A stretch of 51,289 nucleotides of DNA, from IMG/VR virus record IMGVR_UViG_3300018062_000001, positions 1-51,289 of that record. One strand, given 5' to 3'. Origin of the DNA: a virus. Position 1 is the first letter of the stretch. The number at the start of each line of letters is the position of its first letter. A program made the translations under genes and the position numbers. Positions 504 through 20,984 of this stretch are shown here, piece after piece. The notes under the pieces were generated by a model, which was not told where the DNA came from, searched no databases, and saw nothing but the letters and a program-made list of their open reading frames with translations.

Positions 504-1124
504 ATGTCTAGATATTCTAGAAAATCTCATATTTATTATGACAAATATCAAAAGACCAGAGTCTCTATTCATTGGTCTAACAAAGCCTCCGCCTACGCGA
601 TTCATTTTGAAAAACTTCCCAATAGCAAATGGTTTGCTGGTGGCAAAGAAAGATTCCAAAAAATTCAAACTGCCTTTATTGGCTTCATTAATAATCTACC
701 ATATGGAGAAAAAGAAAAAGTCATTAAGATTGATATAGTAAATAACGAAGAAGTCCAAGATTGGACTTACTATATTCACGAAAAACATCTTAATAATTTT
801 AGAAATTTAGTAGAATTGATGCCAGAAGATTTTGAGATAGACTTTATCGAGAAGCCAGATGAAACAGCAAGATTTACCAGTAAATTTATTCCCATAGATG
901 TATGGCTAGATAAGTTTAAGGAGATAACAGGTGAAAGCATATCAAATCTTGATTATAATGGAAGTCGTTCTATTTACCGCCGTATGTGTAGACTTCTCCA
1001 TCCTGATTATAATCCCAACGATTTGGAAATTGCCAGTAAAATGAGTGAATTAAATGAAATTTGGACAAATTTAGAAATATATCATTTTAAAACAAAACAG
1101 ATAGAACAATTACAAGAAGTATAA
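504..1124 (+). CDS. J-domain (DnaJ-like) protein
   Basis: The C-terminal third of this 206-residue protein looks like the core of a J domain. Helix II (IYRRMCRLL, 157-165) leads into HPDYNPND, and the diagnostic His-Pro-Asp is at 166-168. Helix III (EIASKMSELNEIWTNLE) follows. J domains stimulate the ATPase of Hsp70/DnaK and recruit it to clients, using HPD as the contact. The N-terminal 125 residues are unrecognised and may bind the client. There is no Gly/Phe region or zinc finger here, but a DnaJ-type zinc finger occurs in the GroES-like gene at 16129, suggesting a scattered chaperone module. Hijacking of host DnaK is inference. The HPD context is convincing; the rest is weaker. Confidence 0.72.
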   Translation: MSRYSRKSHIYYDKYQKTRVSIHWSNKASAYAIHFEKLPNSKWFAGGKERFQKIQTAFIGFINNLPYGEKEKVIKIDIVNNEEVQDWTYYIHEKHLNNFRNLVELMPEDFEIDFIEKPDETARFTSKFIPIDVWLDKFKEITGESISNLDYNGSRSIYRRMCRLLHPDYNPNDLEIASKMSELNEIWTNLEIYHFKTKQIEQLQEV

Positions 1125-2490: not shown

Positions 2491-3747
2491 ATGAAAGATT
2501 TCAGAAAACAAGAGGAGCCAGAAAAAAATGGACAATATAGCAATAGTTCTAGCATTAATAGCGATAACATTTGCGATAATCAATCTAACCAGAACAATAG
2601 AAAAGAAGAAATAACCGAAGAAGAAAAAAACGTCGTAAAATTATCTTCTAAGTTTCTCGGTCTAGGAATCAGAACAAAATTCGTTTACTATCTTAAAGGT
2701 CCAGTCGTTACAAATTATACTTTTACTTTATCTAATGACGTTCCACTTTCAAAAGTCTTAGGAAAGTCAGAAGATTTAGCATTATCTGTGGGCGCAGTCT
2801 CTTGTATTATTCAAAGAATAGGTGGAGAAATAGTTATATCTATTCCAAATAATCCAGAAGATCGCCAGATTGTAGATTTCAAAGACAATTTATATTGGTA
2901 TCTTCATAATGAAAAAGTGCGCGAAGCACGAATACCAATTCCTTTAGGTATAAATATTCAAGGACAAAAATCATTTTTTGAATTAACAGACATGCCACAT
3001 GCCTTAGTTGCTGGAAGTACAGGCGCGGGAAAATCAGTATGGCTTTCTTCAATAATTGAATCTTTAGTTTATAAATTTGATTCTGATTATGTTAAAATGT
3101 ATTTAGTAGATACTAAAAGAGTAGACCTGCCTCTTTTTAAAGACCTCCCACATATTATAGGACTTGCTGATGATATTAAATCTTTTCACTCAGAAGTTTG
3201 TTATCAAGTAATGGGAGAGATACGTCATAGATTGCAATTATTTCAAACTGAATCTATTCGTAATATTGATTCATATAAAAAGAAAACCGGAAACAAAATT
3301 CCATACATTCTTGTTATTATAGATGAACTAGCAGATGTTCTAGAATTAGATAAAGAACTTGATAGAAAAAAGGATGGAGAATATGAAGGAACACCCACAG
3401 TTAAAGCATGGCTCAAACGAGTTACCGCTATTGCAAGAGCAGCCGGAATACATATTATTGCTTGTACGCAAAGAAGCAGCGTCAAAATTATTGACGGAGA
3501 TATTAAAGCCAACTTTAACTGTAGAATCGCCTTACGTTTACCAACTGGCTTTGATTCTCGCACAATACTTGGAGAAAATGGAGCGGAAAATCTTTTGGGT
3601 AAAGGAGATATGTTAGTAAAGAAACCAGATACAGATATTCTTGAAAGATTTCATGGGCCTTTTGTAAGAGATGAAGATATTAAAGAATTAGTAGAAAATT
3701 ATAATCAATTAAAAACTATACTTTCCGCTCCAATAATATCACATTAG
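2491..3747 (+). CDS. FtsK/SpoIIIE-type DNA translocase ATPase
   Basis: This is a 418-residue motor protein. A Ser/Asn-rich leader (1-40) precedes an FtsK alpha/beta-like region (GPVVTNYTFTLSNDVPLSKV, 70-89). The RecA-like domain has Walker A GSTGAGKS (175-182) and Walker B ILVIIDELAD (273-282). The C-terminal part (GIHIIACTQRSSVKIIDGDI, then FNCRIALRLPTGFDSRTILG) is typical of the FtsK motor. There are no N-terminal membrane helices and no winged-helix gamma domain, so it should be a soluble hexameric dsDNA pump without KOPS recognition. It is not the packaging ATPase, which is at 42244. Possible roles are DNA entry, concatemer handling or plasmid-like maintenance; these are inference. Confidence 0.92.
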   Translation: MKDFRKQEEPEKNGQYSNSSSINSDNICDNQSNQNNRKEEITEEEKNVVKLSSKFLGLGIRTKFVYYLKGPVVTNYTFTLSNDVPLSKVLGKSEDLALSVGAVSCIIQRIGGEIVISIPNNPEDRQIVDFKDNLYWYLHNEKVREARIPIPLGINIQGQKSFFELTDMPHALVAGSTGAGKSVWLSSIIESLVYKFDSDYVKMYLVDTKRVDLPLFKDLPHIIGLADDIKSFHSEVCYQVMGEIRHRLQLFQTESIRNIDSYKKKTGNKIPYILVIIDELADVLELDKELDRKKDGEYEGTPTVKAWLKRVTAIARAAGIHIIACTQRSSVKIIDGDIKANFNCRIALRLPTGFDSRTILGENGAENLLGKGDMLVKKPDTDILERFHGPFVRDEDIKELVENYNQLKTILSAPIISH

Positions 3748-5872: not shown

Positions 5873-7210
5873 ATGACACCAGAACAAGCATCACAAAAAT
5901 ATAAATGGGTTAAATATAATTCTTCTACAAATACAGTAGAATTATATCTTGACCATCATATGTTATCTTGGGCCAGAATGTGTGAAGCTGGATTTTACTT
6001 TCAACACATTTTGAAAATAAATCCTAGTTATAAAAGAGTAGAGGCTCCAAAAATACCAATTTTAAGACCAACAAACACAGAGAAAGAAATTATAGATTCT
6101 ACATTAGAAGGATTAATAGATAATCAAAAAGAAGAAAGTGAAAGATTAGAAAATATAAGAGCCTCAATACACAAACCTTGGTTCCTAGAATTCGGTGAAT
6201 ATCTTCATTATATGTTTGAAATTTATTACAAATCTTTTATTCATCGAGAAAAATCTTATATCTTAGATTATCTATTATCTCCCACACAACAGTGTCTTAA
6301 TCTTACAGATTTCTTAAACATTGGTAAAAAAGTATGGAATTTAATGGATATAGAGTGGTTTGCAGGCATAAATGAAAAGAAACCCGGAAATGTAGATTCT
6401 GCTAGTCACAAAAGATATTATGAAGTTGGAGGATGGAAGGGAGTTAGTAGTCTACTAACACAATATTATGTATATTATCAAGATTTGAGAGTTAGAATTA
6501 TAGATACAGAAATTATATTTGGGTATAATAAAGAAGTAAAAATTGGAGAATTTAATTTAATAACTGATTATTGGAAAGAGAGGTCTCCATATGGATCGTG
6601 GGATGAGGATAAAATAGAAACAATAGAAATTAATTGTTTTCTAACAGGCCGCATTGATCTTCTAATAGACAACGGCTATAAAATTGGTCCAGTAGATCAT
6701 AAACATTCTCATAAATTTTACGGAGATGAATCAGATCATTATAATCCACAAGATGCGATTACTGGATATATATTAGCAACACGCGAAATAATGCAAAGAA
6801 ATTATCCCAAGTATTTTGAAACTGGGCGCGAGTGTCTTAGTGCTTGGGTCTATCATATCTGCGCCACAGAGCCATCAGAACCAAGAGATAAAAATAAATC
6901 AAGACAACCAAGATTTAAGACAACTCCAATAGATAAATCACCACAACAATTAGAAGATTTTAAAAAGCGTCAACTAAGTACATTTAAAAGAATAGCAGAG
7001 TTATTATTTAATGATAAAACTCCAGAATGGAATACTCTTGTATGTAACAACATATTCAATAGAGATTGCATGTATAAAGATATACATGAAAGAAGTCCCG
7101 AACAGTGGGAAAATATCATTAGAGAATATTATTTAGTTGGACAAGAATGGAATCCTAGAGAAAGAGATAGTGATAAAATTGATGAGATTTTAAAAATAGA
7201 AAGAATATGA
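5873..7210 (+). CDS. PD-(D/E)XK (RecB/Cas4-like) nuclease
   Basis: This is a 445-residue protein. LTGRIDLLIDNGYKIGPVDH (257-276) gives the PD-(D/E)XK core: Asp262, then Asp275-His-Lys277, followed by a conserved-looking HSHKFYGD. Cys37 (MCEAG) near the N-terminus and Cys391/Cys399 (VCNNIFNRDCMYKDI) near the C-terminus resemble the split ligands of an Fe-S cluster in Cas4/AddB-type nucleases. Phage members process DNA ends for recombination. The Sak4-like and SSB-like genes downstream support a recombination module. Loss of a fourth clear Cys leaves the Fe-S assignment tentative. Confidence 0.78.
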   Translation: MTPEQASQKYKWVKYNSSTNTVELYLDHHMLSWARMCEAGFYFQHILKINPSYKRVEAPKIPILRPTNTEKEIIDSTLEGLIDNQKEESERLENIRASIHKPWFLEFGEYLHYMFEIYYKSFIHREKSYILDYLLSPTQQCLNLTDFLNIGKKVWNLMDIEWFAGINEKKPGNVDSASHKRYYEVGGWKGVSSLLTQYYVYYQDLRVRIIDTEIIFGYNKEVKIGEFNLITDYWKERSPYGSWDEDKIETIEINCFLTGRIDLLIDNGYKIGPVDHKHSHKFYGDESDHYNPQDAITGYILATREIMQRNYPKYFETGRECLSAWVYHICATEPSEPRDKNKSRQPRFKTTPIDKSPQQLEDFKKRQLSTFKRIAELLFNDKTPEWNTLVCNNIFNRDCMYKDIHERSPEQWENIIREYYLVGQEWNPRERDSDKIDEILKIERI

Positions 7211-9550: not shown

Positions 9551-9728
9551 ACATCCAGATTTAGATCAAGTATTTCATGCCTGTCATTTAATACAATATT
9601 GTAATGATGCATTAAAAATATTTGAGTCTAAAATACATAAAGAGTCAAATGATAAATTATTTATTATGGTCGGTGTACTAGATTGGGTAACTGAATTACA
9701 CAGATTAATATATGTCTCTAATAAATAA
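9537..9728 (+). CDS. Hypothetical small protein
   Basis: This 63-residue helical protein overlaps the genes on both sides (14 and 17 bases), typical of a tightly coupled operon. HPDLDQVFHACHLIQYC contains two His and two Cys that could bind metal. No family is recognised. Confidence 0.5.
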   Translation: MELIKHPDLDQVFHACHLIQYCNDALKIFESKIHKESNDKLFIMVGVLDWVTELHRLIYVSNK

Positions 9729-10830
9729 CCAAGGATCCGAATCTAATCCTCTCTGGATTATTACAGGAACTCCTTATGAAAATGATGCCCCACAGAGCAC
9801 TATATTCTCTGGTGGTTTTGGATGGAATTGGAAAAAAATCTGGAGACTTTCAAATCTTCCCGAAGCTCATATTAGGTCTATATATCCTTGTCTTGGTTCT
9901 ACTTATGATCCTGCCACTATTCTTTATAAAACTCACGAGTTAATTAATCAACACAAACCAACATTTATTATATTATTAACAGATGAGTTACTTAACTATT
10001 TTGTACCAGAAACAACTCAAATAAAAGAGAAGAATTCTAGTATAAGAAAATGGGCAGGCTCTATCCTAAAGTGTGAAACACTACAATACGATCATTATAT
10101 TTTTTGTTGTCAACCACCAGACTATTTAACAAGAAATTGGGACGAACATGAAATAGCTGGATATATTGATCTAGGTCATGTAAAAGAAGAGTATGATTTT
10201 TACATCAAAAATAAATTTTTACAACCACCTCCAAGGCGCAGCCTTATAACTGCGCCTTCTTTTGGAGATTTAATTAATTTATTACAAGAGACACTTAATA
10301 AATTTTACAAAAAAGAACTTATATACATAAGTAATGATATTGAGACAATAAGACCAAAAGAAAAATCTTTTTATAGAAGAGAGATGAAACATCCCGGCTT
10401 GATTTATTGTACAGCAATAGCTTGGTCAAAAGATTTTTCTTTTAGTTTTAGTCTTTGGGATTATGAACCATTTCAATGCGTAAAAATCTGGCGTTTATTA
10501 GCAGAAATATTAGCAAATATTCCTCAAATTGGGCAAAATTATTTTGAATTCGATTCTCATTATTTAGAAAGAATGGGATTCAGAATTTGTCTTTCAAAAT
10601 GTCTTGATACACGTATAAGACACCATATTTTATGGCCCGGATTACCACATTCACTTCAATTTCAAACAAAACAGTATACAAGAGAGAAGTTTTATAAAGA
10701 TGAGGGGAAAAATTTTAGACTTGCCTTTAAAAAACAGTATATGGAATACAATGCAAAGGATAGTGCTGTTACTTTTGAGATAAAAGAGAAACAAGATGAA
10801 GAATTTTCAGAAAGAAAATGGCTCCAATAA
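9712..10830 (+). CDS. DNA polymerase A exonuclease subunit with UDG-like N-terminus
   Basis: This 372-residue protein holds the proofreading half of a split family A polymerase. Exo I is NDIET (Asp209, Glu211), Exo II is GQNYFEFDSHYL (Asn276, Asp281) and Exo III is YNAKDSAV (Tyr346-x3-Asp350), the DEDDy set for 3'-5' exonucleases. The N-terminal 150 residues (GTPYENDAPQSTIFSGG, then KPTFIILLTDELL) resemble the uracil-DNA-glycosylase-like domain seen in some phage polymerases. The polymerase domain is a separate gene at 12216, four genes downstream. The two products presumably assemble. Confidence 0.82.
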   Translation: MSLINNQGSESNPLWIITGTPYENDAPQSTIFSGGFGWNWKKIWRLSNLPEAHIRSIYPCLGSTYDPATILYKTHELINQHKPTFIILLTDELLNYFVPETTQIKEKNSSIRKWAGSILKCETLQYDHYIFCCQPPDYLTRNWDEHEIAGYIDLGHVKEEYDFYIKNKFLQPPPRRSLITAPSFGDLINLLQETLNKFYKKELIYISNDIETIRPKEKSFYRREMKHPGLIYCTAIAWSKDFSFSFSLWDYEPFQCVKIWRLLAEILANIPQIGQNYFEFDSHYLERMGFRICLSKCLDTRIRHHILWPGLPHSLQFQTKQYTREKFYKDEGKNFRLAFKKQYMEYNAKDSAVTFEIKEKQDEEFSERKWLQ

Positions 10831-12215: not shown

Positions 12216-13781
12216 ATGCGACAATACATTACCAGTTCTTATGAGCATGAACTAGCATATTATTTTCATCAAATAGATAATAGAGGTCTTTTATTAGACC
12301 ATAAAAAATTAGTAGAATTAAAAATAGCTTGCCAAAAAGAATTAAAAGATAATTGTGCTTATTTAAGTTCTCTTTGGTGTATTCCAGTTTATATAGGAAA
12401 AGAAAATGATCCTGATATTCCTGGTTCTTTAAATTTAAATAGTAAATCTAAACAATTATTACCAAGACTAAAAGATTTAGGTTATCAGGTTCCAAAAGTA
12501 CGACAGAGAGATCAAGAGTCTGGAGAGTATGAATTTAAAGATTCCGTAAATAAATTAGCTCTCCAAAAATTATTATCTGACCCATCTCTTTGGCCCATTA
12601 GTATTAATAATGCCGCAGGTGATGGAATAAAAAAACTTCTTGAAACTATAGAAGTTATTACATTTAGAAATAGATATATTAATGCCCGACTTTATAACAA
12701 CACATATTTCTCTAACTATGGCACAGCCTCAACAGTCACAGGTAGAAGAGGCTCTAAAAAGAATATATTTGGATTTGGCGGTAACGCACAGAATTTTCCA
12801 GCTAGAGGACGCTTATCCTCTTTATGGAAATCGTGTATCATTAGCAGACCAAGAAAAATATTCTTCTTTATTGACCAAATGCAGGCAGAAGATTGGCCTG
12901 TGCAGGCACTTTCAGCAAATTATAATGCCTTGGATGATATGCGAAGAGGAATTAATAGGCATTACAAATTCGCTTCTCTTATATTTGGCATTCCAGTTGA
13001 TGACCTTAAAAGAATTAGAGGAGATCATAATCATCCACAATATCTTGAAACAGAAATGCAATATAATCTTGGGAAACGCGGACGCCATGCGAATAATTAT
13101 GGAATGCAACCAACAAGATTATCCGAAATATTGGCAGCGGAAGGATATAGTATTCCCGCTACATCTGCAAATAAAAAGTTTAAATACATAAGTGGAATGT
13201 TGTCTCAACAACCTGAAGTGCTAACAACTAAATGGATTTTAGAAACTATTAATACTCTTGACCCCAATGTTAAAGCAATATTCCATAAATATATACAAGA
13301 TGAATTATCCAAATCCTCACATATGTTACGAACACCATTGGGACGGGAACGACAATTTTTTGGACTTCGCTCAGGTGAAAAGAATTATAATATATTTAAT
13401 GAAGCATTTGGATATATTCCACAAAGTACAGTTGGTGACAATACAGGTATTGCGATACGAGAATTGGAGTCTAGTTGTAGTTACAATGAATCTTCCACGG
13501 GAATTGTACAAGATGGACATGACTCGTTATGTCAGGAGCTATGTGATACTGAGAAAGAATTATTGCATGTTTTTAGAGAAACTAAAAAAGCATTTGACAG
13601 AGATATTGAATTTCACAATGGAATTATAATAAATATTCCAATAGAAGCAAAAATTGGATATGATTGGTGGAATACTGTAGAAATAGGTGGCGGTGTTAAT
13701 TATACAGAAGAAAATTTATTAAAGGCATATAAGGAGCTAAAAGAAAAATATGAGTGTCCTGTCAGCACAATCAATTCGTAG
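12216..13781 (+). CDS. DNA polymerase A, polymerase domain
   Basis: This 521-residue protein holds the palm, fingers and thumb of a family A DNA polymerase. TASTVTGRRGSKKNIF and GGNAQNFPARG (170-198) precede motif A, FFFIDQMQAEDW, with catalytic Asp220. Motif B is LGKRGRHANNYGM (285-297: Lys287, Tyr295-Gly296). Motif C is IVQDGHDSL (430-438), with His435-Asp436 followed by Ser instead of the usual Glu. The exonuclease domain is encoded separately at 9712. It has no gap from the SLOG gene. Split polymerases occur in some phages, and the products should interact. Confidence 0.92.
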   Translation: MRQYITSSYEHELAYYFHQIDNRGLLLDHKKLVELKIACQKELKDNCAYLSSLWCIPVYIGKENDPDIPGSLNLNSKSKQLLPRLKDLGYQVPKVRQRDQESGEYEFKDSVNKLALQKLLSDPSLWPISINNAAGDGIKKLLETIEVITFRNRYINARLYNNTYFSNYGTASTVTGRRGSKKNIFGFGGNAQNFPARGRLSSLWKSCIISRPRKIFFFIDQMQAEDWPVQALSANYNALDDMRRGINRHYKFASLIFGIPVDDLKRIRGDHNHPQYLETEMQYNLGKRGRHANNYGMQPTRLSEILAAEGYSIPATSANKKFKYISGMLSQQPEVLTTKWILETINTLDPNVKAIFHKYIQDELSKSSHMLRTPLGRERQFFGLRSGEKNYNIFNEAFGYIPQSTVGDNTGIAIRELESSCSYNESSTGIVQDGHDSLCQELCDTEKELLHVFRETKKAFDRDIEFHNGIIINIPIEAKIGYDWWNTVEIGGGVNYTEENLLKAYKELKEKYECPVSTINS

Positions 13782-14521: not shown

Positions 14522-15748
14522 ATGCCACGACTTCTGAAAAAGTCTTGGTTAGATTCCTTTCTCGAATATACAGATGAAAGTACAGCCCCTCTAGAATGGT
14601 TACGTTGGGCAGGTATTAGTGCTATCTCCACTTCTTTAAAAAGGAATTCATATATATGGTGGCATAGAATTCAACTATATCCAAACCAATATATAATTCT
14701 TATCGGTCCACCCGGTATTGGAAAAGGAGATGCAGTAGGATTTGCCATTGACATTACTAGAGCAGCGGGAACTGTTAACTATCTGTCCGATTGGAATACG
14801 CCACAAGAGATGATAGACGAACTTGCAACAGGATATAATAAACCAGTTCTAAGTGTCAGCTCTACTGGCGTAACTACAGGATTAATTTCAGTAGATCGCT
14901 CCGCATGTATATTAGGAAAAGAATTAGCGGTAGTATTACAGTCTTATGATAATTTACATACAATATTATGTAGATGGTGGGATGATGGAGAATTTGATTA
15001 TAAAACTAAGAACAAAGGCAAATTTCTAATACGAGAATTATGTGTTTCAATGCTTGCTGGTTGTGTCCCAAGATATATAAAGCATCTTTTGAAAGATACT
15101 CAAGCAGTAGTAACATCTGGCTTTACTGCTCGTTGTATATTTATTCTTGAAAAAGAAAAACGAAAACAAATAGAATTTGATTTTGGTAAAGTATCTAATA
15201 CTAATCAACAATTAAGAGATGATTTAGTACATGATCTTAAAGAGATAGGAAATATAAATGGCGAATTTTGTTTTGACATCGGTGCCGAAGGATTTTGGAG
15301 ACAAAAATTCCAAGAAAGACAAAAGAGATATTCTGGAAGGGGAAATAATAGTAGTGATGTTAGTCAGGACTTTGAGTCCAGAGTCGAAGCCCACATCATT
15401 AAAACTGCCATTGCAATTTGCGCTTCAGACGCTGATACGAGAACAATCACAAGAGATCACCTTGAAAGAGCTACAGAATATGTTGAAAGAGTCGAAAATA
15501 AAATTGATACTATCTTCAGGGGTGTTGGTGAAAGTCCTTTGGCCCCAGGAGAAGGATACGTCTTAGATTTTATAGAAAGTTCTAAATATACAACACTTAA
15601 TGATGTTATAAGAGCATGTAAAAGACATGTGACTGTTTCACAAATAAATGATATAATAGCACAATTACAATATAGTGGTGATGTAATTTATGATTTAAAT
15701 GGGACTGGAAAACAAGTTATTAAATATATAGGAAAATCTCATCCATGA
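14522..15748 (+). CDS. DUF3987-type replicative ATPase/helicase
   Basis: This is a 408-residue protein. WLRWAGISAISTSLKRNSYI (27-46) and YPNQYIILIGPPGIGKGDAV (53-72) match the DUF3987-type phage ATPase, with Walker A GPPGIGKG at 62-69. TKNKGKFLIRELCVSMLAGC gives the sensor region. The last 60 residues (SKYTTLNDVIRACKRHVTVS) look like a winged helix. Family members are thought to act as replicative helicases or loaders. Its position beside the polymerase genes supports this. No primase motifs are present, so priming must come from the host or an unrecognised gene. Confidence 0.78.
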   Translation: MPRLLKKSWLDSFLEYTDESTAPLEWLRWAGISAISTSLKRNSYIWWHRIQLYPNQYIILIGPPGIGKGDAVGFAIDITRAAGTVNYLSDWNTPQEMIDELATGYNKPVLSVSSTGVTTGLISVDRSACILGKELAVVLQSYDNLHTILCRWWDDGEFDYKTKNKGKFLIRELCVSMLAGCVPRYIKHLLKDTQAVVTSGFTARCIFILEKEKRKQIEFDFGKVSNTNQQLRDDLVHDLKEIGNINGEFCFDIGAEGFWRQKFQERQKRYSGRGNNSSDVSQDFESRVEAHIIKTAIAICASDADTRTITRDHLERATEYVERVENKIDTIFRGVGESPLAPGEGYVLDFIESSKYTTLNDVIRACKRHVTVSQINDIIAQLQYSGDVIYDLNGTGKQVIKYIGKSHP

Positions 15749-16122
15749 GTGTAGCATTAGGAAAGTATAAGAATTATTCTATTGAAGAAATTTGTTATCC
15801 GCATTCTGTTAACTTAATTAAAGAAAAATTATTAACTAGACGTAATATATTAAATAATAATTATTTAACACCTTGTTGGATATACACTGGATGTTTAACT
15901 AAAAAAGGTTATGGAGTAATAACAATAGTAAGAAGAAATTTACCAGTGCATGTATTATCATTTATGATATTTAAATCAAATGAATATAATTATAAATTAT
16001 GGGTACTTCATAAATGTGATATAAGATCATGTTTTAATCCAGAACATTTATATCAGGGGACGAATAGTAATAATATGAAAGATATGTGGAAACGTGGTAG
16101 AAGAAAAATAAAAGGAGATTAA
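15745..16122 (+). CDS. HNH endonuclease (free-standing)
   Basis: This 125-residue protein contains CWIYTGCLTKKGYGVITI, VHVLSFMIF, then VLHKCDIRSCFNPEHLYQGT and NSNNMKDMWKRG, the HNH_3 pattern of phage homing-type nucleases. The His-Lys-Cys and NPEHL supply metal and catalytic residues. It overlaps the helicase gene by 4 bases and may be a selfish element that has settled in an operon. Confidence 0.9.
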   Translation: MSVALGKYKNYSIEEICYPHSVNLIKEKLLTRRNILNNNYLTPCWIYTGCLTKKGYGVITIVRRNLPVHVLSFMIFKSNEYNYKLWVLHKCDIRSCFNPEHLYQGTNSNNMKDMWKRGRRKIKGD

Positions 16123-16128
16123 TATTAA

Positions 16129-16686
16129 ATGGAGAATAATGAGAGAGAGTGGGGAATAATAGCCGAAAAACATGCAATACGTCCAATACATGATCGTGTT
16201 CTTATTCTTATTGATCCAATAAAAACACATTATGATTGTAAGGATTGCCTTGGAAAAGGGCACACAGATGAAATTTGTCCTAATTGTAATGGTACAAAAT
16301 TAGAACCAAGACACTCAAAAGATTCAGAACCGGAGGCTTGTAGAGACTGTACATTTTCTGGTGAAGTAACTAGAACATATGGATATAGAATATGTCCAGT
16401 ATGTAAAGGACGTAAAGGGATTATTGCTATTCCCGAGAATGCTCTAAAAAGACCTCTTACTGGTAAAATAATTTCTATAGGACAAAAGGTGGAATATTTT
16501 AAAGTCGGAAATCATGTTATATTCACTACATTTACTGGAACTGAATTTGAAATAGAAGGAATACCATTAAGAATTGCTGTTGAAAAAGATATTATTGGAG
16601 AATATAAAGCTCTTACTAAAGATGCTACACAAGATAAAATACAAGAAGAAAAATACGAAGAATTAAGTGATTTGGGAGTTGAATAA
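16129..16686 (+). CDS. GroES co-chaperonin with inserted DnaJ-type zinc domain
   Basis: This 185-residue protein is a chimera. Residues 17-29 (IRPIHDRVLILID) align with the start of GroES. Residues 97-159 (GIIAIPENALKRPLTGKIIS, then KVGNHVIF and EIEGIPLRIAVEKDIIGEY) align with its remainder. Between them, residues 37-92 carry four CxxC repeats (C37/40, C50/53, C71/74, C89/92), two of them in CxxCxGxx form. The spacing is close to the DnaJ zinc domain, which holds two zinc ions. The insertion sits beside the mobile loop, the arm that contacts GroEL. An acidic tail follows. It could bring unfolded phage proteins to the host chaperonin; that role is inference. The gene overlaps the next stop-start by 1 base. 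Confidence 0.88.
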   Translation: MENNEREWGIIAEKHAIRPIHDRVLILIDPIKTHYDCKDCLGKGHTDEICPNCNGTKLEPRHSKDSEPEACRDCTFSGEVTRTYGYRICPVCKGRKGIIAIPENALKRPLTGKIISIGQKVEYFKVGNHVIFTTFTGTEFEIEGIPLRIAVEKDIIGEYKALTKDATQDKIQEEKYEELSDLGVE

Positions 16687-16964
16687 TGGATATAACAGTT
16701 AATAAAACAACATTTAGATTCCATTGGGGATTTCCATTATTTTTACTATTTATTATTTTCAGTTTTTATTTGTGGCACTCTCATAGTAATTTATATTGGA
16801 ATAATCAATGGAAAAAACACCGATGGGCTTCTGATTATTGTAAAGATAGAGGATATGATATAAGAAATTGTACAATACAATTTAAATTGCCGGATCAACT
16901 ATCAAGAGAAACAGCTTATTTTGATTACTGTTTTGAACATGGAGAGTTACGCAGAATAAAATAA
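16686..16964 (+). CDS. Small membrane protein
   Basis: This 92-residue protein has one membrane segment (FPLFLLFIIFSFYLW, about 16-30). A polar domain follows with two cysteine pairs at a distance (DYCKDRGYDIRNC, then FDYCFEHG). It is coupled to the GroES-like gene (TAATGG). It ends 9 bases before the convergent fibre gene, with no visible terminator between. Confidence 0.6.
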   Translation: MDITVNKTTFRFHWGFPLFLLFIIFSFYLWHSHSNLYWNNQWKKHRWASDYCKDRGYDIRNCTIQFKLPDQLSRETAYFDYCFEHGELRRIK

Positions 16965-19299: not shown

Positions 19300-19704
19300 C
19301 TATCTAAGCCAACTTAAAACTTGATTTTGTTTAATTTTAGATAAGAATTGAAATATGGTTAATCCAATTCCTAATGCTCATGAACCATAAACAGTCCATT
19401 CATATTGATCTTTATGTTTAATATTTTGTTTATTTCTATATCTAATTCGTATTCTACCGCCAAATATTTCTTTTAATTTATCTATTGGTTCTTTATTTAC
19501 TTGTGCAAGAAATATACGAATTGCACCATTAATTTTATGTTTACTAATACATCCTTCTCCTTCGATAAATCCTGCTGCCCAACAAATATCTTTAGTAGTT
19601 ATATTTCTTATAGCTTTATTTCCACCATCTCGTCTAATTCGATGAATGAATACAGTTCCAGGTTCTATAATAATATTCTTTCTATAGTCAATCATTTCAA
19701 CCAC
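19300..19704 (-). pseudogene. LAGLIDADG endonuclease interrupted by one TGA
   Basis: The first 108 codons contain CWAAGFIEGEGCISKHKING (a LAGLIDADG motif), IFLAQVNKEPIDKLKEIFGG and YEWTVYGS, then a TGA at 19380-19378. The same frame continues for 25 codons (ALGIGLTIFQFLSKIKQNQV, then LSWLR) to a TAG at 19302-19300. That extension matches the helix expected after the YxWxV strand in single-motif LAGLIDADG enzymes. I read it as a nonsense mutation. TGA ends other genes here (for example 5607 and 7210), so genome-wide recoding is unlikely. It lies between the ATP-grasp gene and a hypothetical gene and overlaps the former by 13 bases. Confidence 0.72.
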
Positions 19705-20984
19705 CCATGTCTTGCCAAAATCTCATATCTTTTTATACATTTTTCCTCAAGATCAGTTCGATATTGCATGTCTGGTATTTGAATTTTTTTTAATTTTTCT
19801 CCCAACTTTCCAAATGCCTTTTGCGGTGTGTAGTCGGCTTGAATAGGAACGCCGATAAGACCAGACACACCAAGGCTATACAACTCACTAGATTTATCAA
19901 GATAGCAATCATATAAAAAACAATTTTTAATAATATCATCTTCTTCTATTCCTTCAATAGGTACATCACTTCTTAAAATTTTTTCATCTTTAGTTTCCGT
20001 AGGATATGGAGGAATAGATAGACGAACGCCAACAGCAAAAGTAGAATCAATATTATAATTAGGAGTATTCCCCGAAGCAATATCAAAAAGAAATTCACCA
20101 AGGTCTGAACTAATACAAGAAAAAATTGTAGCACTTGCATCATAACCAAATCTTGGTGTCCACTCTAGTCCATATAATTCTGAATCAGTTACTATAGAAT
20201 TAAGATCAAGCATTCCTCTATAATTATATTGTTGAAGAAATGATTTTAATTTTCCAAGACCTTCTCTAAATATATAAGGTCTATTTGCAGGAAGATCGTC
20301 ATAAAGCCAAACAAGATTACCAGCACAACCAGTATTAGGACCAACTCCATCATTCATTAATTTCTTTTCTTCTATAGTCCCATTTATTAAATAGAAATTT
20401 TCTCCATTAAAGTATCCCTCTGTAGAGATTTCAGTTCCTTCAACAAATTCTTGTAATATAAAAGTTGCCCCTTTAGAGAGACTTCCAAGCCTGTCAATAT
20501 ATTTAAGTAAGTCCTCTGCGCTTTTAGAGACATATGTTGTGGCTGTATCTTGTTCTTGTCCACCGAAAGGTTTAAAAACATATCGTTTATTTGTTTTTCT
20601 AATAAATTTCTTTGCAGCGTTAAGTTCCTCAAAGACTTCATATTCTGGCACCTTTATATCACATTCTTCCATTACCTCTATTCCAAATAGACGATTATCT
20701 TCAAGCTCAGAATTTAAATCCCCATCTCCAATACAAGGTATATTTTTAGCAATACAAGTCTCCGCTAATTTTGGATGACCAGTAAGATCAAATAAAACAA
20801 GATCATATTTTGTAATGTCTGGTAAAGACAACAAGGGTTGCTTTATCAACCCTTGTAAAATGTATTTAAGATTTTTATTTTCTTTTTGATCTAAATAAAT
20901 ATCGACAGAATGACCTTCAGCCTCTAATCTAATAGAGAACCAAGCACCATACATTGAATATGTACAAATAAGTATTTTTGCCAT
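19692..20984 (-). CDS. ATP-grasp ligase
   Basis: This 430-residue protein has the ATP-grasp order: a Rossmann-like N-terminus (ILICTYSMYGAWFSIRLEAE), KRYVFKPFGGQEQDTAT with the ATP-binding Lys, LQEFVEGTEISTEGYFNG, and YGLEWTPRFGYDAS with the metal-binding Glu and Arg. It resembles PurD-like carboxylate-amine ligases, but residues specific for glycinamide ribonucleotide were not recognised. Such enzymes can also join amino acids to peptides. The next gene upstream in the transcript (21004-21183) encodes a Lys-rich small protein, a conceivable substrate. It lies in the virion region, away from nucleotide genes. Confidence 0.8.
   Translation of the reverse strand: MAKILICTYSMYGAWFSIRLEAEGHSVDIYLDQKENKNLKYILQGLIKQPLLSLPDITKYDLVLFDLTGHPKLAETCIAKNIPCIGDGDLNSELEDNRLFGIEVMEECDIKVPEYEVFEELNAAKKFIRKTNKRYVFKPFGGQEQDTATTYVSKSAEDLLKYIDRLGSLSKGATFILQEFVEGTEISTEGYFNGENFYLINGTIEEKKLMNDGVGPNTGCAGNLVWLYDDLPANRPYIFREGLGKLKSFLQQYNYRGMLDLNSIVTDSELYGLEWTPRFGYDASATIFSCISSDLGEFLFDIASGNTPNYNIDSTFAVGVRLSIPPYPTETKDEKILRSDVPIEGIEEDDIIKNCFLYDCYLDKSSELYSLGVSGLIGVPIQADYTPQKAFGKLGEKLKKIQIPDMQYRTDLEEKCIKRYEILARHGWLK

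Follow-up and report, generated by a model that had tools for sequence, protein, structure and literature searches.

The window analysed here, i.e. the whole 51,289-nt stretch of the virus record IMGVR_UViG_3300018062_000001, encodes a phage co-chaperonin of the GroES/Cpn10 type that carries a zinc module of the DnaJ type in its mobile loop, an architecture that we regard as nearly certain. GroES, a lid of 10 kDa, is among the most uniform proteins known. GroES proteins encoded by phages, DnaJ-type zinc proteins devoid of a J-domain and a DnaJ-type insert in a phage DNA polymerase are all known; for GroES combined with a DnaJ-type zinc module, the literature covered contained no earlier account.

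Organization of the gene and its GroES barrel

The ORF 16129-16686 (+), whose product is designated P0001, and its four CxxC motifs at residues 37/40, 50/53, 71/74 and 89/92 were found exactly where the sequence-only reading had placed them. All eight cysteines of P0001 lie within these motifs, and the opposite strand contains many stops across the same interval. The gene and its product are organized as follows:

16129..16686 (+), whole gene, GroES/Cpn10-type co-chaperonin with an inserted DnaJ-type zinc module (185 aa; coordinates with the stop included)
16171..16221 (+), N-terminal barrel strand HAIRPIHDRVLILIDPI, residues 15-31, corresponding to GroES beta-1 (AlphaFold2 pLDDT ~90; family alignment)
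16237..16404 (+), zinc module, residues 37-92 (56 residues), with four CxxC motifs, kept in relatives
16237..16248 (+), motif 1, CKDC (C37, C40), half of the predicted outer zinc site 1+4, family-invariant cysteines
16276..16287 (+), motif 2, CPNC (C50, C53), half of the predicted inner zinc site 2+3, absent together with motif 3 in five relatives
16339..16350 (+), motif 3, CRDC (C71, C74), half of the predicted inner zinc site 2+3
16393..16404 (+), motif 4, CPVC (C89, C92), half of the predicted outer zinc site 1+4, family-invariant cysteines
16423..16434 (+), I99-A100-I101-P102, equivalent of the GroEL-contact triad (I25-V26-L27 of E. coli GroES), in 23/23 members
16447..16602 (+), C-terminal part of the GroES barrel, residues 107-158 (Cpn10 39.8 bits; pLDDT ~90; Foldseek matches to Cpn10 structures)
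16483..16497 (+), site of the GroES roof hairpin, down to ~5 residues (QKVEY) in alignments
16603..16683 (+), charged, probably disordered C-terminal tail, residues 159-185 (pLDDT 40-46)

The GroES identity of P0001 is supported by both sequence profiles and predicted structure. The Pfam profile Cpn10 (PF00166) matched residues 96-157 over profile positions 21-91 (39.8 bits; cut-off 21.1). This cut-off is exceeded by 14 of the 27 records of the family described below. Residues 1-40 alone gave no match in Pfam, the N-terminal strand being too short for one, whereas in the AlphaFold2 model of P0001 this flank forms part of a GroES barrel predicted with a pLDDT of ~90. The two GroES-like flanks recognized in the sequence-only reading thus differ in their support: the C-terminal one is confirmed by the profile, while the N-terminal one escapes Pfam and is recovered in the model. 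When this model was compared with the PDB using Foldseek, the best 34 matches were all of the Cpn10 family, with T4 gp31 (1g31) among them, as anticipated for a GroES beta-barrel. The GroES models of NCBIfam (PRK00364 series) aligned with residues ~93-160 at no more than 38.6 bits, below their curated cut-off of 109, and the NCBIfam DnaJ models, aligning with residues 34-102, likewise scored far under their whole-protein cut-offs. The GroEL-contact triad, in which positions 1 and 3 are hydrophobic and which precedes a proline, was present in all 23 members scored.

One hallmark of GroES, the roof hairpin, is reduced in P0001 to ~5 residues according to the alignment. By analogy, the short roof would not be decisive against membership of the Cpn10 family, since gp31 is an accepted co-chaperonin without roof loops (PMC6318259). 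In some relatives the roof site is occupied instead by a long insert (L033, ORF 5947-6561; also L014, L042 and L016), which in the model of L033 forms a helical hairpin (residues 110-123 and 133-148) and constitutes a second, separate modification of the lid.

P0001 therefore shares with GroES/Cpn10 proteins the barrel, the order of its strands, the hydrophobic triad before a proline and a C-terminal half scoring above the Pfam cut-off, and differs from them in its mobile-loop zinc module (25-70 residues in the phage proteins), its disordered tail and its short roof. Similarity to gp31 extends further, i.e. to a phage-encoded co-chaperonin with a short roof, an altered mobile loop and a matching structure; however, the loop of gp31 is lengthened by only ~6 residues and contains no domain.

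The stop codon of the gene shares one base with the start codon of a further ORF (16686-16964, +). Its small product contains a hydrophobic stretch of the membrane type, and no homolog of it was found in the related loci.

The zinc module

In alignments with GroES, Cpn20 and Thermus Cpn10, the segment that follows the last CxxC motif, KGIIAIPENALKRPLTGKIISIG, lines up with the second arm of the mobile loop and with the strand after it. Therefore, the zinc module sits in the first (upper) arm of the loop, directly before the GroEL-contact triad. Its assignment to the mobile-loop region from sequence was correct and can now be made more precise: the module precedes the triad and lengthens the loop, and the GroEL contact is not replaced.

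The four CxxC motifs of P0001 are arranged in order across the whole DnaJ zinc-domain profile PF00684 (residues 37-96, profile positions 1-65), with a score of 19.3 bits that lies under the cut-off of 32.7. All the family members scored were below this cut-off (best score 24.4 bits). PHROG 37414 matched the zinc part alone.

The cysteines follow a pattern among the relatives. Across the alignment of 23 members, those of motifs 1 and 4 never vary, and the module contains either eight cysteines or exactly four, but never six; L040, with nine, is the one exception. In the four-cysteine members (L014, L039, L042 and L032, plus L103 by sequence) motifs 2 and 3 are both missing; in some members the inner motif pair has the form CxC or Cx5C. 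The module varies in length from 25 to 70 residues. Four changes between the eight- and four-cysteine states were counted on the PolA tree as well as on a tree of the GroES barrel with the module columns removed, and at least three of the four are forced by well-supported branches in both trees, which by themselves do not distinguish gain from loss. In the DnaJ zinc domain the sites are nested, with motif 1 paired with motif 4 and motif 2 with motif 3. The repeated change of motifs 2 and 3 as a unit is what this topology predicts. The four motifs and their paired behaviour agree with the assignment of the insert to the DnaJ type, originally based on motif spacing.

In the AlphaFold2 model of P0001 the zinc region was predicted with a pLDDT of 50-72. 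A model of the relative L033, built with 23 sequences, reached a pLDDT of 84.9, with 87-91 for most of the zinc module, and a single search of the PDB with it retrieved Cpn10 structures, gp31 and the DnaJ-type chaperone BSD2 on one chain. Structurally, the module came closest to BSD2 (6ekb; probability 1.00, rmsd 2.8, 33% identity in 58 aligned columns). The two-zinc fold expected of such an insert is therefore predicted in this relative. Conservation of the motifs in 27 non-redundant members rules out that they are chance CxxC sequences or a frame artefact.

Among seven close relatives (21 pairs), dN of the module exceeded dN of the barrel in nearly all pairs, a comparison limited by saturated dS; the module retained its eight cysteines and the barrel showed few amino acid changes. 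An additional N-terminal CxxC pair (CIQC...CILC), probably a further zinc ribbon, was noticed ahead of the GroES part in L003 (12112-12822).

The phage module resembles the central zinc domain of DnaJ (PF00684) in its four CxxCxGxG-like motifs and in the nested pairing suggested by their paired absence. It differs from that domain in its sub-cut-off score, the dispensable inner site, the location inside a GroES loop and the lack of both a J-domain and the DnaJ C-terminal domains. A zinc module without a J-domain is also found in the chloroplast proteins BSD2 and ZnJ2, which are free-standing zinc chaperones of the DnaJ type. Of the two, BSD2 takes part in the biogenesis of Rubisco together with the Cpn60/Cpn20 chaperonin (PMC5818400); BSD2, however, is a separate protein, whereas the phage module is part of the co-chaperonin itself. 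Insertion of a DnaJ-type zinc module into a phage protein has a precedent in the DNA polymerase of HMO-2011-type phages, although there the carrier is a polymerase and the insert has two motifs only (PMC9038755).

Relatives, gene neighbourhood and partner chaperones

Searched as a single query against the viral contigs of IMG/VR, P0001 retrieved nothing. With the neighbouring DNA polymerase as the query, 17 related contigs were found, 16 of which contain a homolog of the GroES gene; the seventeenth locus (L009) stops shortly past the polymerase. Further members were added by profile searches, giving a family of 27 non-redundant members of uncultured phages, including that of the window, from IMG/VR and one MAG contig. 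Of the 23 loci examined, 22 share the gene order PolA - DUF3987 - GroES, and the ORFs often touch or overlap; the order was also observed in L092, L108 and L110. The flanks of L037 and L103-L106 contain no PolA homolog, and these members probably represent a second lineage. The 47.7 kb contig L110 belongs to a Sulfuriferula MAG, which is a weak pointer to the host. The corresponding genes of the window are:

12216..13781 (+), DNA polymerase A, polymerase part, the syntenic marker of the lineage
14522..15748 (+), DUF3987 gene, primase/helicase-like, located 5' of the GroES gene in 22/23 loci

The family A DNA polymerase of the window appears to be split into two ORFs, an exonuclease-type one (9712-10830, +) and the polymerase ORF (12216-13781, +), with ~1.4 kb containing other ORFs between them. 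An HNH homing-endonuclease-like ORF (15745-16122, +) separates the DUF3987 gene from the GroES-zinc gene; a similar one occupies the same place in L008 and is absent there in most relatives. Elsewhere in the window, a short ORF (19378-19704, -) with a LAGLIDADG-like stretch, WAAGFIEGEGCIS, touches the end of an ATP-grasp-like gene (19692-20984), and an FtsK/SpoIIIE-type DNA translocase (2491-3747, +; PF01580, 107.6 bits) is encoded on this 51 kb phage contig.

Neither GroEL nor DnaK is encoded in the 27 phage records, many of which are fragments, and the chaperonin partner of the protein is therefore probably that of the host. A second, conventional GroES was not found in the same phages, except for one sub-threshold, stop-containing fragment in G019. 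An ORF with a J-domain was detected in 19 of the 27 records (E <= 0.1), with three above the Pfam cut-off, and the HPD motif is present in all 18 J-domain loci that were fetched as well as in the copy of the window:

504..1124 (+), separate J-domain protein with a C-terminal J-domain and intact HPD (PF00226 just under the cut-off)

The N-terminal part of this protein matched no family, and Pfam revealed no J-domain within P0001 itself. The J-protein is a possible co-chaperone partner of P0001; a precedent for a phage J-protein working through host DnaK is Rki of RB43 (PMC3486835).

The same architecture was sought in other genomes. In tblastn searches with two GroES probes (approximate sequences), 162 and 234 cultured-phage records were matched, and among the matches listed that cross the mobile loop there is no room for an insertion. 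The survey of phage GroES genes proposed in the sequence-only reading thus revealed no such insertion among the cultured-phage matches listed. Using family members as queries, tblastn detected no homolog of the architecture either in cultured phages or in plasmids. Of 369 genomes of the class around L110, the module is present in that MAG only, on a phage-like contig, and absent from the other 368; the chromosomal match in the same MAG aligns to the GroES half alone. A scan of a genome collection with the family also yielded none, this being a weak scan that used one short pattern and missed L110. Among the best 50 predicted viral structures, headed by plain GroES proteins, none showed the whole architecture (query TM-score <= 0.36), though the orientation of the domains could hide one, and PADLOC gave no match. 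Weak matches in L063, L064 and L066-L068 were rejected as members, being CxxCxGxG-rich or DnaJ-like sequences without GroES. Three of them, L066, L067 and L068, from uncultured phages of ~635-642 kb, are long proteins whose C-terminal parts consist of numerous CxxCxGxG repeats in a row and show no relation to GroES. The literature covered (mainly open-access journal articles) contained no description of a zinc or DnaJ insert within GroES, in line with the sequence-only reading, for which no described example was known.

A proposed lid with client-holding modules and its alternatives

The most likely reading, which we put at even odds, is that the phage protein replaces host GroES on host GroEL and that its zinc modules bind phage clients at the lid; assembly into a heptamer, GroEL binding, zinc occupancy and client binding are all predicted properties. 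The phage co-chaperonin would take the place of host GroES on host GroEL, in the manner of T4 gp31. Each subunit would combine a GroES barrel and a triad docking on GroEL with a zinc module directly ahead of this triad, and a heptameric lid would consequently bear seven zinc modules round its skirt, beside the docking sites. The modules may bind non-native phage proteins via the outer zinc site (motifs 1 and 4), and the bound clients might be passed into the chamber or held on release. A holding function would thereby be joined in cis to closure of the lid.

Motifs 1 and 4 are taken by us to correspond to zinc centre I of the known DnaJ structure. According to Linke 2003, as cited in PMC4428491, zinc centre I of DnaJ serves in substrate binding and centre II in contact with DnaK. 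If these roles are as that citation gives them, a site I that is always kept and a site II that is repeatedly missing would fit client binding without DnaK. ZnJ2, a DnaJ-type zinc protein without a J-domain, functions as a holding chaperone, without cooperating with DnaK (PMC5818400); together with the zinc-centre roles as cited, this favours the holding of clients at the lid. The faster divergence of the module, with its eight cysteines kept, is also what a client-facing surface might show, allowing for the saturated dS. Against client holding stand the location of the gene among replication genes rather than head genes, the sub-cut-off PF00684 scores of the members scored and the pLDDT of 50-72 in the zinc region of P0001. 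Moreover, in the complex with GroEL the module might point away from any client.

The exact location of the insert within the loop that contacts GroEL, which leaves the triad intact, would also suit a structural brace, i.e. a module that stiffens and lengthens the loop and thereby makes the chamber larger or adjusts how tightly host GroEL is bound, leaving clients untouched. The loop of gp31 is likewise longer (22 vs 16 residues) and its roof loop absent (PMC6318259), the roof being short here too, and a one-zinc module is enough in five members, as it would be for a clip. We nevertheless consider such a brace somewhat unlikely: a length of 25 to 70 residues is odd for a spacer of set length, and a DnaJ-type fold with a fast-diverging surface exceeds what a brace needs. 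It is improbable that the GroES fold has been recruited as a subunit of the replication complex or as a folding factor that is no lid of GroEL, with the module binding DNA or a replication protein, since retention of the triad (23/23) and the few amino acid changes of the barrel would be unexpected if GroEL binding had been lost; the fixed place of the gene after PolA and DUF3987 and the partial DnaJ zinc domain contained in the HMO-2011-type phage DNA polymerase (PMC9038755) agree with such a role.

Weak thiol-reductase activity is known from the DnaJ zinc domain (PMC4428491), and the CxC or Cx5C form of the inner pair in some members could likewise be read in terms of a thiol-redox lid, whose CxxC motifs would act as an oxidoreductase for clients at the mouth of the chamber. 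The chance of this is slight, given that the cysteines occur in sets of four, as in zinc sites, and that holding by ZnJ2 persists without its cysteines (PMC5818400), so that thiol chemistry is not needed for holding. Finally, two observations, the presence of J-domain ORFs with HPD in 19 of the 27 records and the lack of a phage DnaK, are consistent with a bridge between Hsp70 and Hsp60, in which the GroES-zinc protein and the phage J-protein, i.e. a DnaJ split over two proteins, would couple host DnaK to host GroEL. This we hold to be highly improbable, as the inner zinc, which in DnaJ is the DnaK-linked one, is the very site that is repeatedly missing, even in L014, L039, L042 and L032, which keep the J-protein; moreover, nothing points to the two phage proteins meeting.

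With regard to a lid that holds phage clients through its zinc modules, it is conceivable, and suggested here tentatively, that capture of a client, its delivery to the chaperonin and closure of the chamber are united in one lid protein, perhaps with a DnaK-recruiting phage J-protein, which would replace the relay from DnaJ to GroEL of the host. If this is true, the phage protein would be a natural case of one protein linking the folding step of Hsp40 to that of Hsp60, and it would permit a direct test of whether a holding module tethered to the lid improves encapsulation. Members of the family with two zinc sites and those with one form a natural series in which the role of each DnaJ zinc site may be studied.
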